NCBI GenBank assembly: GCA_003554865.1
Contig: PWHJ01000025.1
Coordinates: forward strand, 1 to 64,000
Direction: 5' to 3'
DNA: 64,000 nucleotides
From: Bacteroidota bacterium
GTDB taxonomy: Bacteria; Bacteroidota; Bacteroidia; Bacteroidales; PUMT01
Shown: positions 22,578 to 28,279 of the stretch, piece after piece
Layout: each line of letters opens with the position of its first letter
Position numbering within the stretch: position 1 is the stretch's first letter
The notes under the pieces: model-generated
What the model saw: only the letters and a program-made list of their open reading frames with translations
Databases searched by the model: none
What the model was told of the DNA's origin: nothing
Program-made: the position numbers and the translations under genes

Positions 22578-22608
22578 AAGGCCACCGTACCAGCCATGCG
22601 GTGGCCTT
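22578..22608 (-). terminator. Hairpin terminator overlapping the otsAB stop codon
   Basis: aaggccaccg / cggtggcctt 10-bp stem with 11-nt loop. Confidence 0.6.
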
Positions 22609-24796
22609 ATACTTTCAGCTTCCCGAGAAGCTCAACTGCTTCCTCTTGTTTATCAAGGACATAGTTGGCAGCAGTATGAACTTTGCCTACCCTGAAAGTA
22701 AAAGCATCCCGGGGGAGTGTGTGAAAAAGCAGCTCATCTGCCCATCCTGCGCCAATGGCCATAATGAAGTCATAATTTTTCATTGACAACCAGTGAAGAG
22801 CAATCTCACCCTTGTTTATTCCGGAATTGCTTATCTCTATCACTTTGTTCCCGTGAAGTACCTGTACATCAAGGTTGGAAGTAAGGTTCAAAAGGTGTTC
22901 GTTCACTTCACGGGCAAGAAATTTAGATTGCTCAATGTCGGCCTTGTAATAATGCCAGGCCACAGAAAACTCCTTTTCCTCGACAAAGGAGCCCGGCAAT
23001 CTGTCGGTATACATCTCCAGTATATCAAGAACTTCTTCTTTCCATTCGACAGAAAGGGGCTTTAGCTGATACCACTCCTGCTGTGAGGCTTTTTTTATCC
23101 ACGAGCCGTGCTCGGCTGTCAGGTTAACATTTATCCCTTTCAGCAAATATTCGAGATTATCCTTGCTCCTGCCGCTAAGGATCACAATATCGGTGTCGGG
23201 TTTGTCATTTATTTGCTGCAGGAGCTTCAACAATTCCGGGCGTGGTTTTGCTTTTGAAGGGTCACGGGAGAAGGGGACAAGTGTTCCGTCATAATTTACA
23301 AAGATTATCCTGTTGGCAGCCCCTTCATATTTTTCCATCAGGTTACCGGCCACTTCAGCTGTAAATCTCTTTTTTTTGAACGTGTGTTCAGAATCCCTCC
23401 TTATTTCGATCAGAGTATCCACAAAATCCCCGGCCCATTTGGTAACATTATACCTTTTAAGGCGTTGCTGCATAATGGTATTTCGCCTTTTCTGCTCATC
23501 AAGGGGCACTTTGAGAGCCTCCAGGATAGCATCTGCTATTTCATCAATATTGTTGGAATTGATTATAATGGTTTCGCTCAGCTCTCTTGCCGCCCCGGCA
23601 AATTCGCTTATGATCAGAACACCTTTTTTGTCGGACAGTGAAGCAACATACTCCTTGGCAATAAGGTTCATCCCATCCCTCAGCGGGGTAAGAAGAGCAA
23701 CGTCACTCGAGCGGTACTGAGCAATAAGCTCTTCGTGGGGCAGTGAAGTAAACTGATATATAATAGGAATCCAGTCGACACTTCCGTAAGTGCCGTTAAT
23801 ATAACCCACAAGCTCATCCAGGTTCCTTTTTATTTTCTGGTACATATAAACCCCTGTGCGGGAGGGTACAACGATCATGTTCATACAAACCTTACCCTGC
23901 CACCCGGGATTTTCCTTTAAAAACATCTCAAAACCGAGCAGCCGGTTGATAATGCCCTTTGAATAATCAAGCCTGTCAACAGACAAAATGGTTTTCATAT
24001 TATTCGAAGGAAGCTGTGACTTTTTCACCCTGCTTGTGTCCATGCCGTTGAATTTCTCAAAGTCAACTCCCATGGGAAATGTATCAACCCTCACCATCCT
24101 TCCCGGTAAAACAATCTTTCCCATATGATTGTCAATTCCCAGTATCCTGCGGACACAACCCAGGTAATACTGCGAATAATCATGTGTGTGAAACCCAACC
24201 AGGTCCGCCCCTGCCAGTCCTTCCAGTATCTCACTGCGGCTTTCCTTCGGCAGCAGCCTGTACATTTCAAAAGACGGAAAAGGAATATGGAGGAAAAAAC
24301 CCACGGGGTTGTCAATTTTCTCCCTCAGCATACGGGGGAGCAGCATAAGATGGTAATCATGAACCCAAACAATATCATCCGGCTCTATTATTCTCAGCAG
24401 CTCATCGCGGAACAGGGCATTAACCTCCTTGTACTGATGCCAGTATTCGGTATCGAATTTAACATACGTGGGGAAATAATGAAATAAAGGCCATATGGTC
24501 CTGTTGCAAAAGCCAAGGTATACATTGTCCATCAACTGCTTTGACATAAAAACCGGAGATGCATTATGGTAATCTTTTACTTTGCCCCTTACAGTTTCCT
24601 CATCTTTTTTGGGTACGCTAATGCCCGGCCATCCGACCCACTTATACTCCTTAATTGCCGAACCGGATTTCCCCAGTGAATCGAGAAAATCACTCAACCC
24701 GGAAACGAGTCCGCCGGCCCCTCTCTTTAGCGTGTATCCCTCCTTCTCCTTTGAAACTACTACCGGCAGACGGTTAGATACTATTATCAATCTCAT
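22607..24796 (-). CDS. Fused trehalose-6-phosphate synthase (OtsA) with C-terminal trehalose-phosphatase (OtsB)-like HAD domain, probably degenerate
   Basis: 729 aa; GT20 motifs NRLPVV, GGLVSGL, WVGWPG, VHDYHLMLLP, SVDRLDYSKGI; C-terminal HAD-like domain from about residue 497 with NYDGTL and GAGWADE motifs. Confidence 0.93.
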   Translation of the reverse strand: MRLIIVSNRLPVVVSKEKEGYTLKRGAGGLVSGLSDFLDSLGKSGSAIKEYKWVGWPGISVPKKDEETVRGKVKDYHNASPVFMSKQLMDNVYLGFCNRTIWPLFHYFPTYVKFDTEYWHQYKEVNALFRDELLRIIEPDDIVWVHDYHLMLLPRMLREKIDNPVGFFLHIPFPSFEMYRLLPKESRSEILEGLAGADLVGFHTHDYSQYYLGCVRRILGIDNHMGKIVLPGRMVRVDTFPMGVDFEKFNGMDTSRVKKSQLPSNNMKTILSVDRLDYSKGIINRLLGFEMFLKENPGWQGKVCMNMIVVPSRTGVYMYQKIKRNLDELVGYINGTYGSVDWIPIIYQFTSLPHEELIAQYRSSDVALLTPLRDGMNLIAKEYVASLSDKKGVLIISEFAGAARELSETIIINSNNIDEIADAILEALKVPLDEQKRRNTIMQQRLKRYNVTKWAGDFVDTLIEIRRDSEHTFKKKRFTAEVAGNLMEKYEGAANRIIFVNYDGTLVPFSRDPSKAKPRPELLKLLQQINDKPDTDIVILSGRSKDNLEYLLKGINVNLTAEHGSWIKKASQQEWYQLKPLSVEWKEEVLDILEMYTDRLPGSFVEEKEFSVAWHYYKADIEQSKFLAREVNEHLLNLTSNLDVQVLHGNKVIEISNSGINKGEIALHWLSMKNYDFIMAIGAGWADELLFHTLPRDAFTFRVGKVHTAANYVLDKQEEAVELLGKLKV

Positions 24797-24807: not shown

Positions 24808-27204
24808 TTATAATTTGAACTGCTTTTTATTGCCGGTTTCGAACCTGAACTTTTCTCCCTTTACTCCTACACAGACCGGTTCGGCATAACCTTTGTCAAA
24901 TTCGATCTCCAGTATCCTGTGATCAATATAAAGCTTTATCCAGTGTCCGCGATAACGGACATAAAAAGAGACCGAATTAATGTCATCCGGAAGACAGGGG
25001 TTGAGCCATAATACATCATCCCTTATCTCCAGTCCCGAATAGCATCTTTGTATTATATCGGTTGTTCCTGCCATGGCCCCAAGATGGATACCCTCATGGG
25101 TAGTGCCTCCCTGTATATCTTTAAAATCGCTCATAAGGGCTCTTCTGAAATTTTTCCATGAGCGGTAGCGGTCGGAACGCGCAAAAACCCATGCATGAAT
25201 AACCTGGCTCAATGTAGAGCCGTGAGATGTTATCTCCTGATAATAAGATATATTATCAGGAATAATATCCGGGTTGAACCTGTATCCCAGTTTATTGAAT
25301 ATAGCCTCAAGCTCTTCAGTTGAAAAAATATAAAAGAGCATAAGCACATCAGCCTGCTTGGTTGCCTTGTACCTGTTGGGAGTATCGTTTTCCTTCTCCA
25401 GTATCCTGTCCAGCCTCATTATATTACCGTATTTTTTACGGTATTTTTCCCAGTCCAGATCCTCCAGGCTGCAAAAGCCTTCAAACTGCTCGATAATATT
25501 GCCCCCATTATAAAAGGGGATAAACATCTTGCCTGTAATATCTTCCCATTTGTCAATATCTTCTTTTGTAAACCCGACTTTTTCAGCAACCTCCTCTACA
25601 CATGAATCATCCAGCAACCTGCAAATCTCAAGTGCTTTTTGCATTACCCATACAGCCATAATATTTGTATAGGCATTATTGTTAAGACCCTGTGAATTGG
25701 AATCCGGATACTTTTCATGGTACTCGTCGGGGCCCATAACGCCCATTATCTCATACCGGTCGCGCCTGGGGTTATAAGTGGCGATAGTGGACCAGAAAAG
25801 TGCAGTGGCACATATTATTTCGGCCCCGTAAGTTGTGAGAAAATCAATATCTCCCGTACTCTGGTAATAATGCCATACATTGTAGGGGATCGCTGCATTG
25901 ATATGGCGCTGAAGTCTTGAATTGTCTGGTATCCAGCGCCCAGATTTAGGGTTGAGATGTATCTCCTGTGTTTCTTCCCTTCCGTTGCTTCCGCTTTGCC
26001 AGGGATACATTGCTCCCCTGTATCCGGCTTCCCTTGCAGCATGGTACGCCTCCGGCAATCTTCGGTAACGGTATAGCAGCAGTGAACGGGAAAGCTGGGG
26101 ATTGTGAAGGTTTATAAACGGGAGTATATAAAGTTCATCCCAGAATATATGCCCCCTGTATGCCTCCCCGTGCCAGCCGCGTGCCGGAACCCCAATGTCG
26201 TAATCTATGCTGTTCTTTGATACAGTCTGATAAAGATGAAAAATATGCAGTCTCAGTATCAGCTGATCGCTGTTTGCAGAATTGAGCTTCATATCATTAT
26301 AGCTCCATATCTGCGACCAGGCAGTACTTTGTTTTTCGGCTATATCAGAAAATGTTGCAAGCCGTTCTGTTTTTGTCAAAGCCTCAGTAAGTGGGTCGCT
26401 TATTGCAAAATCTCTTGAAGTATAAATTGAAACAAGCTTTTCTATTCTGACCGGTTGAAGCCTGGAGCACTCGATTTTTATATCCTTTGCAATAAATCCC
26501 TCCCGCTGAAAAGTTTTCTGCGGAACATCGGCCTTTCTCTGGTTTATGTAAACATCTGTTTTGGCCGCCTGGGTCATCTGTATTTTGGACTGCTTGGAGC
26601 GGCTTATAAGGTAAACCGAGTTATCGTTAAAACTCCCCTTTTCTGTAACCTCTATATGATCCTGATTAAGGTCCCTGTAGCGCGCAACATTATTGTTAAT
26701 TATGTTTCCGTCAATGCCGGAGCGGAGAGTAATTTCACCCGACCAGTTTTCGGGAATCAAAGTCCATTCCAGTCCACCAACATGATAATCATACATACTG
26801 ACTATCCTGCGGCTGATAATGGATGTTACATTGCCTTCATCATCCCTTACCCTCATTTTACGCTCCAGTATCCCCTCCAGCATGTTAAGGGAAGTTATAT
26901 GCCCGATCACATCCATTTTGCTGATATCCAGCCACTTTCTTTTTCCTATCTTAAAAGTAAGGTAAAGCCAATTAGGCCAGTTTACAAGATCCTCATTTTC
27001 CACCGTCCTGCCCTCTATTTCCGATTTCATACGATTGTAGCCTCCTGCAAGGTAAGTACCGGGGTAATTATACTCATTGTCGGGCACTTCCTCAAAAGCC
27101 CCCCTGGTTGCAAATACCCCGTTTCCAAGAGTGCACAACGCCTCCCTTAAAGAATGATTTTCCGAACTCCAGTCATCGTATCGCAATATCCAGTTGTTAT
27201 CCAT
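24808..27204 (-). CDS. Glycoside hydrolase family 65 protein (disaccharide phosphorylase or alpha-glucosidase)
   Basis: 798 aa; GH65 motifs WHGEAYRGHIFWDELYILPF, MGPDEYHEKYPDSNSQGLNNNAYTN, GTTHEGIHLGAMAGT. Confidence 0.9.
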   Translation of the reverse strand: MDNNWILRYDDWSSENHSLREALCTLGNGVFATRGAFEEVPDNEYNYPGTYLAGGYNRMKSEIEGRTVENEDLVNWPNWLYLTFKIGKRKWLDISKMDVIGHITSLNMLEGILERKMRVRDDEGNVTSIISRRIVSMYDYHVGGLEWTLIPENWSGEITLRSGIDGNIINNNVARYRDLNQDHIEVTEKGSFNDNSVYLISRSKQSKIQMTQAAKTDVYINQRKADVPQKTFQREGFIAKDIKIECSRLQPVRIEKLVSIYTSRDFAISDPLTEALTKTERLATFSDIAEKQSTAWSQIWSYNDMKLNSANSDQLILRLHIFHLYQTVSKNSIDYDIGVPARGWHGEAYRGHIFWDELYILPFINLHNPQLSRSLLLYRYRRLPEAYHAAREAGYRGAMYPWQSGSNGREETQEIHLNPKSGRWIPDNSRLQRHINAAIPYNVWHYYQSTGDIDFLTTYGAEIICATALFWSTIATYNPRRDRYEIMGVMGPDEYHEKYPDSNSQGLNNNAYTNIMAVWVMQKALEICRLLDDSCVEEVAEKVGFTKEDIDKWEDITGKMFIPFYNGGNIIEQFEGFCSLEDLDWEKYRKKYGNIMRLDRILEKENDTPNRYKATKQADVLMLFYIFSTEELEAIFNKLGYRFNPDIIPDNISYYQEITSHGSTLSQVIHAWVFARSDRYRSWKNFRRALMSDFKDIQGGTTHEGIHLGAMAGTTDIIQRCYSGLEIRDDVLWLNPCLPDDINSVSFYVRYRGHWIKLYIDHRILEIEFDKGYAEPVCVGVKGEKFRFETGNKKQFKL

Positions 27205-27361: not shown

Positions 27362-28279
27362 TCATTTGTTTTCGTTCACCTCAAGCTTAAGAGGGTCGAT
27401 TTCTTCTCCCCAGTAAACGGTTGTATGGGGAAAGGGGATTTCTATATTCTCGCGGTCAAAAGCTTTTTTAAGTCTTCTGCGGTACTCCCTGCCGGTAAAC
27501 CACTGCTCTATTGGCCTGGTCTTTATCCGGGCCCTTATTACCAGGGCGCTGTCGGCAAATTCGTTCAGACCGAAAATTTCAATCGGCTCAATGATCTTTT
27601 CAGCAAATTCAGGATCGGCTTTCAGCTCATCACCAACCTCTTTCATGATTTTCATTACCTTGTCAACATCCTCCTTGTATGCCACGCCTATATCAAGCAC
27701 AATAGCCGACCACTGTTTTGTCATATTAGAGATTGAGTTAACTTTTCCATTCTGAAAAATGTGTACCACACCCGAGAGGTCGCGAAGGGTTATGGTCCGC
27801 AGCTCAATTTTTTCGACAAGTCCGCCGGTCCCGTTTATTATAGCCACATCCCCCACTCTTACCTGATCTTCCAGCAGCATAAAAAAACCGGAAATATAAT
27901 CCCGCACCAGCTCCTGGGCGCCAAAACCCACGGCCAGTCCAACGATACCGGCACTTGCAAGAATCGGCCCGATCTCCACACCCACCTTAACCAGAACTAT
28001 CATAATAAATACGGTCAAAATTATAACCCTTGCCGTTCCGTTAACAATACCCATCAAAGTATTTATTCTTTTGCCGGCCTCTTCCTTATCGACACCCTCT
28101 TTTTCCGTGGCACGCCTTATCAGGGTTTTTTTTAGTTTCCCTATTGAAAAGCGGATTATGCGAAGCAGCACAAAAGTTGCAGCCACGGCTATTAAAAGTC
28201 CGGGCATCTGGTTAATTACCCAGCTTTTGAGATTTTCTGTTAAATCATTAAAAAAAGTAGTGTTAATTACCTCTTCCAT
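27362..28279 (-). CDS. MscS-family small-conductance mechanosensitive channel
   Basis: 305 aa; N-terminal TM helices, GLAVGFGAQELVRDYISGFFMLLEDQVRVGD motif. Confidence 0.92.
   Translation of the reverse strand: MEEVINTTFFNDLTENLKSWVINQMPGLLIAVAATFVLLRIIRFSIGKLKKTLIRRATEKEGVDKEEAGKRINTLMGIVNGTARVIILTVFIMIVLVKVGVEIGPILASAGIVGLAVGFGAQELVRDYISGFFMLLEDQVRVGDVAIINGTGGLVEKIELRTITLRDLSGVVHIFQNGKVNSISNMTKQWSAIVLDIGVAYKEDVDKVMKIMKEVGDELKADPEFAEKIIEPIEIFGLNEFADSALVIRARIKTRPIEQWFTGREYRRRLKKAFDRENIEIPFPHTTVYWGEEIDPLKLEVNENK

Follow-up and report, generated by a model that had tools for sequence, protein, structure and literature searches.

The window examined in the present study, a 64,000-nucleotide stretch of one contig from a Bacteroidales genome (96% complete, 4.3% contamination), carries on its minus strand a gene fusing a trehalose-6-phosphate (Tre6P) synthase (TPS) domain to a trehalose-phosphatase-like (TPP) domain. 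The relevant features are the following:

22607..24796, minus strand: TPS-TPP fusion gene with predicted inactive TPP, 729 aa, open reading frame without internal stop
23402..24796, minus strand: GT20 trehalose-6-phosphate synthase domain, residues 1-465, substrate residues intact
22616..23317, minus strand: HAD trehalose-phosphatase-like domain, residues 494-727, predicted fold kept, catalytic residues lost
23294..23296, minus strand: Asn501 codon AAT at the nucleophile position (Candida albicans Tps2 D25), from minus-strand DNA and alignment
22733..22753, minus strand: motif IV, GAGWADE, in which C. albicans D230 (Mg ligand) has become Ala683 and the next Asp Gly684, with Asp687 kept
22946..22948, minus strand: Tyr617 in the cap, at the position of the Tre6P-binding residue R142 of C. 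albicans; 99% of intact homologues have Arg here, and most of the dead clade has His
24808..27204, minus strand: GH65 phosphorylase, 798 aa, predicted trehalose-6-phosphate phosphorylase, on the same strand as the TPS gene and 11 nt upstream of it
27362..28279, minus strand: MscS-type mechanosensitive channel, upstream of the GH65 gene on the same strand, a possible osmotic-stress partner

Pfam assigns both domains to the fusion protein, GT20 at residues 2-462 (464.6 bits) and Trehalose_PPase at residues 499-716 (148 bits), in agreement with the original prediction of an OtsA-OtsB fusion at this position. The minus-strand DNA around codon 501 reads GTA AAT TAT GAC GGA ACA CT and that of motif IV GGC GCA GGA TGG GCA GAT GAG, the same codons from which an Asn at the nucleophile position and an aberrant motif IV had been reported. 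The NCBIfam bifunctional model NF011071 scores the protein at 905 bits against a cut-off of 634, so that the TPP loss is invisible to family models; a bifunctional TPS-TPP protein (TPSP) has both active sites intact, and here the TPP site is lost. Comparisons were made with a clade of relatives sharing 57-74% identity and the same loss (the dead clade), which come from the window's genus and family, other families of the order, soda-lake Bacteroidales MAGs and one Cloacimonadota MAG. The dead-clade genomes examined all appear to be MAGs or drafts, from which genes may be missing.

The synthase half shows no comparable loss. No clade member has lost any of the 17 OtsA/Tps1 substrate-site positions that it covers, and those present in the window protein include R9, G22, W40, Y76, W85, D130, H154, R262, K267, R300, D361 and E369, the last five being OtsA numbers that we take as labels for the substrate-site positions compared here. 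The C. albicans Tps1 residues that contact the phosphate of G6P, Y89 and R318 (PMC5527307), correspond in the alignment to Y93 and R313 of the window protein. An AF2 model of the GT20 half (pLDDT 87) has the GT-B fold, its top matches being TPS structures (TM 0.92 by target).

In the phosphatase half, the motif I nucleophile Asp (DxDGT) is replaced by Asn501 and the Mg-binding Asp pair of motif IV is half lost (D230 = Ala683, D234 = Asp687), with motif II S541 and motif III K662 present and invariant in the dead clade. The motif I string of the Cryptococcus neoformans Tps2 structure 5dx9, NYDGTL, is identical to that of the window protein; we take this structure to be an engineered D-to-N substrate-trap mutant of fungal Tps2. 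With the C. albicans Tps2 residue list as reference for TPP sites (PMC9079074), three positions have changed in the window protein (D25 to Asn501, D230 to Ala683 and R142 to Tyr617), and D27, S65, R67, E131, K133, H140, E180, K188 and D234 are retained. A nucleophile mutant of the Brugia T6PP, D213A, had no detectable activity (PMC4081830). Modelled with AF2 (pLDDT 91.7), the domain matches the C. albicans Tps2 phosphatase 5dxi at TM 0.90, indicating an intact TPP fold. Alignment to solved TPPs places Asn501 on the nucleophile with no alternative Asp available there, which, with the match to the TPP fold, rules out another Asp as nucleophile. Alignment with active TPPs and modelling of the domain had both been proposed as checks on the original prediction of a catalytically dead phosphatase half, and both agree with it. 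As predicted from alignment and model, the window TPP domain is folded but without its phosphatase chemistry. The retention of D503, S541, K662 and D687 counts against a fully dead domain, which may have residual or promiscuous phosphatase activity.

The substitutions are conserved in close relatives, as the original prediction would lead one to expect. Asn501 occurs in 32/32 distinct clade sequences and Asp in 77/77 other TPSP homologues of the alignment, a distribution that argues against a chance change or read error; all 77 also have GDD in motif IV, where the clade has Ala at position 683 in 30 of 32 sequences (Ser or Asn in two) and Gly at position 684 in 31 of 32. Sequencing error and recent pseudogene formation are excluded by the fixation of the change in 32 distinct sequences under purifying selection. 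The dead clade was recovered in the full-protein tree (31 rows, SH-aLRT 100; four rows tagged active within it are N-terminally truncated sequences with NYDGT) and in the TPP-domain-only tree (32 rows, SH-aLRT 99), and on these trees the TPP loss has a single origin, inside the prokaryotic TPSPs. A strong TPSP match was obtained for 49 of 294 genomes drawn from the order, with an identity gap between the dead clade (at least 60%) and all others (at most 48%). Going by these residues and their conservation, the window protein is quite probably a working trehalose-6-phosphate synthase with a dead but conserved phosphatase domain, releasing Tre6P and not trehalose. The production of Tre6P, likewise part of the original prediction, is supported by TPS substrate residues that are 100% intact in the clade.

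Two further loci were observed. The Cloacimonadota MAG, from the same soda-lake sample, carries a complete operon of a beta-phosphoglucomutase (beta-PGM)-OtsB fusion, GH65 and TPS-dead TPP (L070:1666-7967), with 66% identity for GH65 and 57% for TPS, suggestive of inter-phylum transfer or a binning error; its TPP has decayed further (NYDRVL, GNNWSDE). An independent second pseudo-phosphatase is predicted in the single-contig genome G242 (L218:7915-10173, L193), whose single TPP domain belongs to a TPSP with NYDGTL and GNDWTDE (D25N, D230N) and intact cap residues. G242 also encodes a 1056-aa beta-PGM-GH65 near the Tre6P-phosphorylase fingerprint (DQAQ).

The GH65 gene immediately upstream bears on the fate of the Tre6P. 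Among solved structures it matches 9lb6 best (457 bits vs 371 for kojibiose phosphorylase), an entry labelled as a trehalose-6-phosphate hydrolase. De Beul et al. give the specificity positions as TRIGPP in trehalose phosphorylase, EEAPxx in kojibiose phosphorylase and DQGQDE in trehalose-6-phosphate phosphorylase, the last verified with the Caldithrix enzyme (PMC8537180). At these positions (64, 392, 394, 402, 416 and 585 in CsKP numbering) the window GH65 reads DQGQ at the four that are unambiguous and is identical to 9lb6 at 416 and 585, which lie in gapped loops. DQGQ was found wherever covered in the GH65 orthologues, the beta-PGM-GH65 fusions and 9lb6, except in the distant G242 fusion (DQAQ) and a single orthologue (DQSQ). 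The general-acid and phosphate-site motifs (GPDEYHE, HGSTLS, GGTTHEGIH) are those of a phosphorylase, not a hydrolase. The window GH65 thus looks like a predicted Tre6P phosphorylase, and assignments as kojibiose, maltose or trehalose phosphorylase, or as hydrolase, are contradicted by the fingerprint and phosphate-site motifs. GH65 phosphorylases adjoining beta-PGM are usual in disaccharide phosphorolysis, a general association that would suit an ordinary trehalose phosphorylase in a plain trehalose storage cassette, but with D-Q-G-Q, equal to 9lb6, in place of T-R-I-G we regard this as rather unlikely. No GH37 trehalase was found in the window's genome.

Dephosphorylation elsewhere, the other possibility raised in the original prediction, is supported by the gene content of the genome, which has two PF02358 domains, one being that of the window protein and the other, which is intact, belonging to a second TPSP encoded on contig C85. 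A search for a stand-alone OtsB had been proposed; the intact TPP found lies within this second TPS-TPP fusion. In the window's genus (g1, three genomes) the second fusion retains DYDGTL and GDDWTDE, and in 3/3 genomes its TPS half is without the OtsA G22 equivalent (now T/S/I) and without the two residues binding the G6P phosphate, Y76 (now N) and R300 (now H/N/Y). Two of these three sites differ between species, as relaxed constraint predicts. On these three residues the TPS of the C85 partner is judged dead; its GT20 outscores that of the window protein in Pfam (496 vs 466 bits). Contamination of the bin by contig C85 is unlikely, as the pair, with losses of the same types, recurs in two sister species. 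In a second genus (g2) the second fusion shows mild changes at the same TPS positions (R9K in all, Y76H in most). Evolutionary rates were compared as inter-domain dN ratios within one gene and not as dN/dS, because synonymous sites were saturated in most pairs. The second-fusion TPP/TPS ratio of 0.95 in g1 (one pair) and 0.55 in g2 indicates a relaxed TPS half, which in g2 is the faster of the two.

The loss extends to the neighbouring genes. The C85 fusion is divergent from a beta-PGM-GH65 fusion gene that is complete in g2 (1047-1066 aa) and measures 807-812 aa in g1 where complete (it is cut by the contig end in G002), the GH65 catalytic centre being gone in g1 and beta-PGM intact. Apart from the gene 11 nt upstream of the window TPSP, the window's genome has no complete GH65, so that the two loci are complementary, C85 contributing TPP and beta-PGM and the window TPS and GH65. 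From these sequences, two once bifunctional fusions appear to have divided the work by mirror-image loss. Genomes of two other families (L179:5300-10767, L180:531-6024) have as their only TPSP one with intact TPP and a broken TPS site (R9, G22 and Y76 changed in both, R300 also in L179). A beta-PGM-GH65 gene bearing the Tre6P-phosphorylase fingerprint lies divergently beside it, and the phosphorylase, working in reverse, might be the source of Tre6P there.

Outside the window's GTDB family, most genomes are without a second TPSP. The operon there consists of a beta-PGM-OtsB fusion (~520 aa, both sites intact), GH65 and TPS-dead TPP, and the last is the sole GT20 in many genomes with this operon. 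In the TPP-domain tree the OtsB of this fusion groups near stand-alone OtsB proteins, a distant lineage, which excludes its descent from the TPP half of the TPS-TPP fusion. In every well-sampled genome another protein, whether second fusion or beta-PGM-OtsB, carries an intact TPP, so a separate protein supplies the phosphatase in each arrangement. Three genomes are without a whole intact TPP (the one TPP of G004 is dead, as are all copies in G072, and G066 has a dead one and a fragment). GH65 adjoins the TPS gene in g1 and not in g2, where the dead-TPP TPSP (L037-L047) is without a GH65 neighbour and is followed by a universal-stress protein gene; TrkA/TrkH potassium transport genes precede it in some g2 genomes, a different osmotic-stress neighbourhood. 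Two other neighbourhood features were noted. A Schlafen-like AlbA_2 gene (L033:7483-8166) lies directly downstream of an intact TPSP in seven loci (L022, L024, L033, L048, L049, L050 and L051), and MscS-like genes occur near TPSP in several other phyla (L071, L073, L091, L102, L106, L109, L117 and L131), recalling the TPSP-GT-MSC operon of Thermoproteus tenax.

The best reading of these sequences is a divided Tre6P pathway, with the synthase and a predicted Tre6P phosphorylase at the window locus and the phosphatase and beta-phosphoglucomutase elsewhere. The window protein would make Tre6P without dephosphorylation in cis, and the Tre6P would enter a shared pool. From this pool the TPP of the C85 partner would convert it to trehalose; alternatively the co-located GH65 would split it with phosphate to G6P and beta-G1P, and the beta-PGM of the partner locus would return the beta-G1P to G6P. 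We tentatively suggest, as a reading slightly less likely than not, that reciprocal loss in two TPS-TPP fusions produced a two-part trehalose synthase like yeast Tps1/Tps2, that the linked beta-PGM and GH65 split likewise, and that the Tre6P pool is a regulated branch point from which the phosphatase leads to trehalose and the Tre6P phosphorylase to glycolysis. The mirror-image catalytic loss with the scaffold kept in both proteins, and the existence of trehalose synthase complexes in yeast and T. tenax, could also mean that the window and C85 fusions form one hetero-oligomer, each dead domain docking the other's live one. We consider this doubtful, since the dead clade also occurs in genomes without the C85-type locus, paired with an unrelated beta-PGM-OtsB.

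The divided pathway leaves the retention of the dead domain to be explained. The median TPP/TPS dN ratio is 1.33 in the dead clade, compared with 1.34 and 1.45 in two intact groups, indicating that the dead TPP domain is constrained and not rotting. D503, S541, R543, K662, D687 and E688 are invariant across the clade, and no frameshifts, stops or deletions were found in its 32 sequences. The Tre6P-binding cap residues have drifted: E606 (E131) is E/Q/K/D, K608 (K133) is K/R/M and R617 (R142) is mostly His, so judging from the alignment the constraint is not obviously for Tre6P binding. A regulatory or structural role for the domain, as originally predicted, is supported by a TPP/TPS rate no faster than in active fusions. 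On its own, the TPS domain of T. tenax is inactive, its activation depending on the TPS-TPP fusion (PMC3634074). By analogy, dependence of the synthase half on the dead domain is the most likely reason for the retention of this domain, and folding, oligomerisation or activation of the TPS half would be candidate roles.

A sensor of Tre6P, in which catalysis was traded for stable Tre6P binding that regulates the fused synthase, would accord with the D-to-N change, which gives the motif I string also seen in the C. neoformans Tps2 crystal structure (5dx9), with Asn501 in 32/32 sequences beside the kept D503, S541, R543, K662 and D687, and with the independent G242 fusion, which has N at D25 and D230 and all cap residues intact. 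A sensor should retain E606, K608 and R617, however, and their drift across the clade makes this role less likely, so we regard it as distinctly improbable, although the window protein itself still has E606, K608 and H615. Simple decay of a domain whose job had been taken over, persisting by chance without function, is very unlikely: catalytic and several cap residues are lost and the L070 protein is further gone (NYDRVL, GNNWSDE), but the unbroken reading frames, the invariant residues and a dN ratio the same as in intact fusions all argue against it. Retention for the sake of the synthase half thus remains the preferred explanation.

Among known systems, the prokaryotic TPSPs (T. tenax, Cytophaga hutchinsonii; NF011071) share the domain architecture, the family model and, in T. 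tenax, the MSC neighbour. The T. tenax TPSP has an active TPP with all TPP motifs, whereas the window protein has lost motifs I and IV; automatic annotation by NF011071, well above cut-off, labels such proteins bifunctional though half the chemistry is predicted to be gone. Plant class I TPS (AtTPS1, sugarcane) resemble the window protein at the residue level compared here, combining an active TPS with a TPP-like domain that has the same two key losses (D25 to G and D230 to H in sugarcane; PMC9079074) and with phosphatase on separate proteins. Unlike these, the window case is bacterial and GH65-linked, its substitutions are N and A, and its partner is a reciprocally degenerated fusion or beta-PGM-OtsB. 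In trees without plant sequences the dead clade arises from intact prokaryotic TPSPs, which suggests an origin independent of the plant and yeast cases. The yeast Tps1/Tps2/Tps3/Tsl1 complex likewise has synthase and phosphatase on separate paralogues with inactive domains retained (PMC3634074); the window and C85 partners differ from Tps1/Tps2 in both being full-length fusions, known here from sequence.

We found no bacterial fused synthase with a dead phosphatase domain in the searchable open-access literature, and nothing specific on trehalose in soda-lake Bacteroidales. Such fused synthases are known in plants and fungi, where the role of the dead domain is still debated. In the clade described here the same design occurs in small bacterial proteins encoded in single operons; their genome also holds a mirror-image partner, and close homologues that have stayed intact are available at ~50% identity. 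This makes the reason for dead-domain retention directly testable. The GH65 trehalose-6-phosphate phosphorylases (EC 2.4.1.216; Lactococcus lactis, Caldithrix abyssi) share D-Q-G-Q, at the four unambiguous positions, and the phosphate-site motifs with the window GH65. The L. lactis enzyme degrades imported Tre6P, whereas the window GH65 adjoins a predicted Tre6P synthase, a pairing that suggests a Tre6P recycling branch in bacteria of saline/alkaline sediments.
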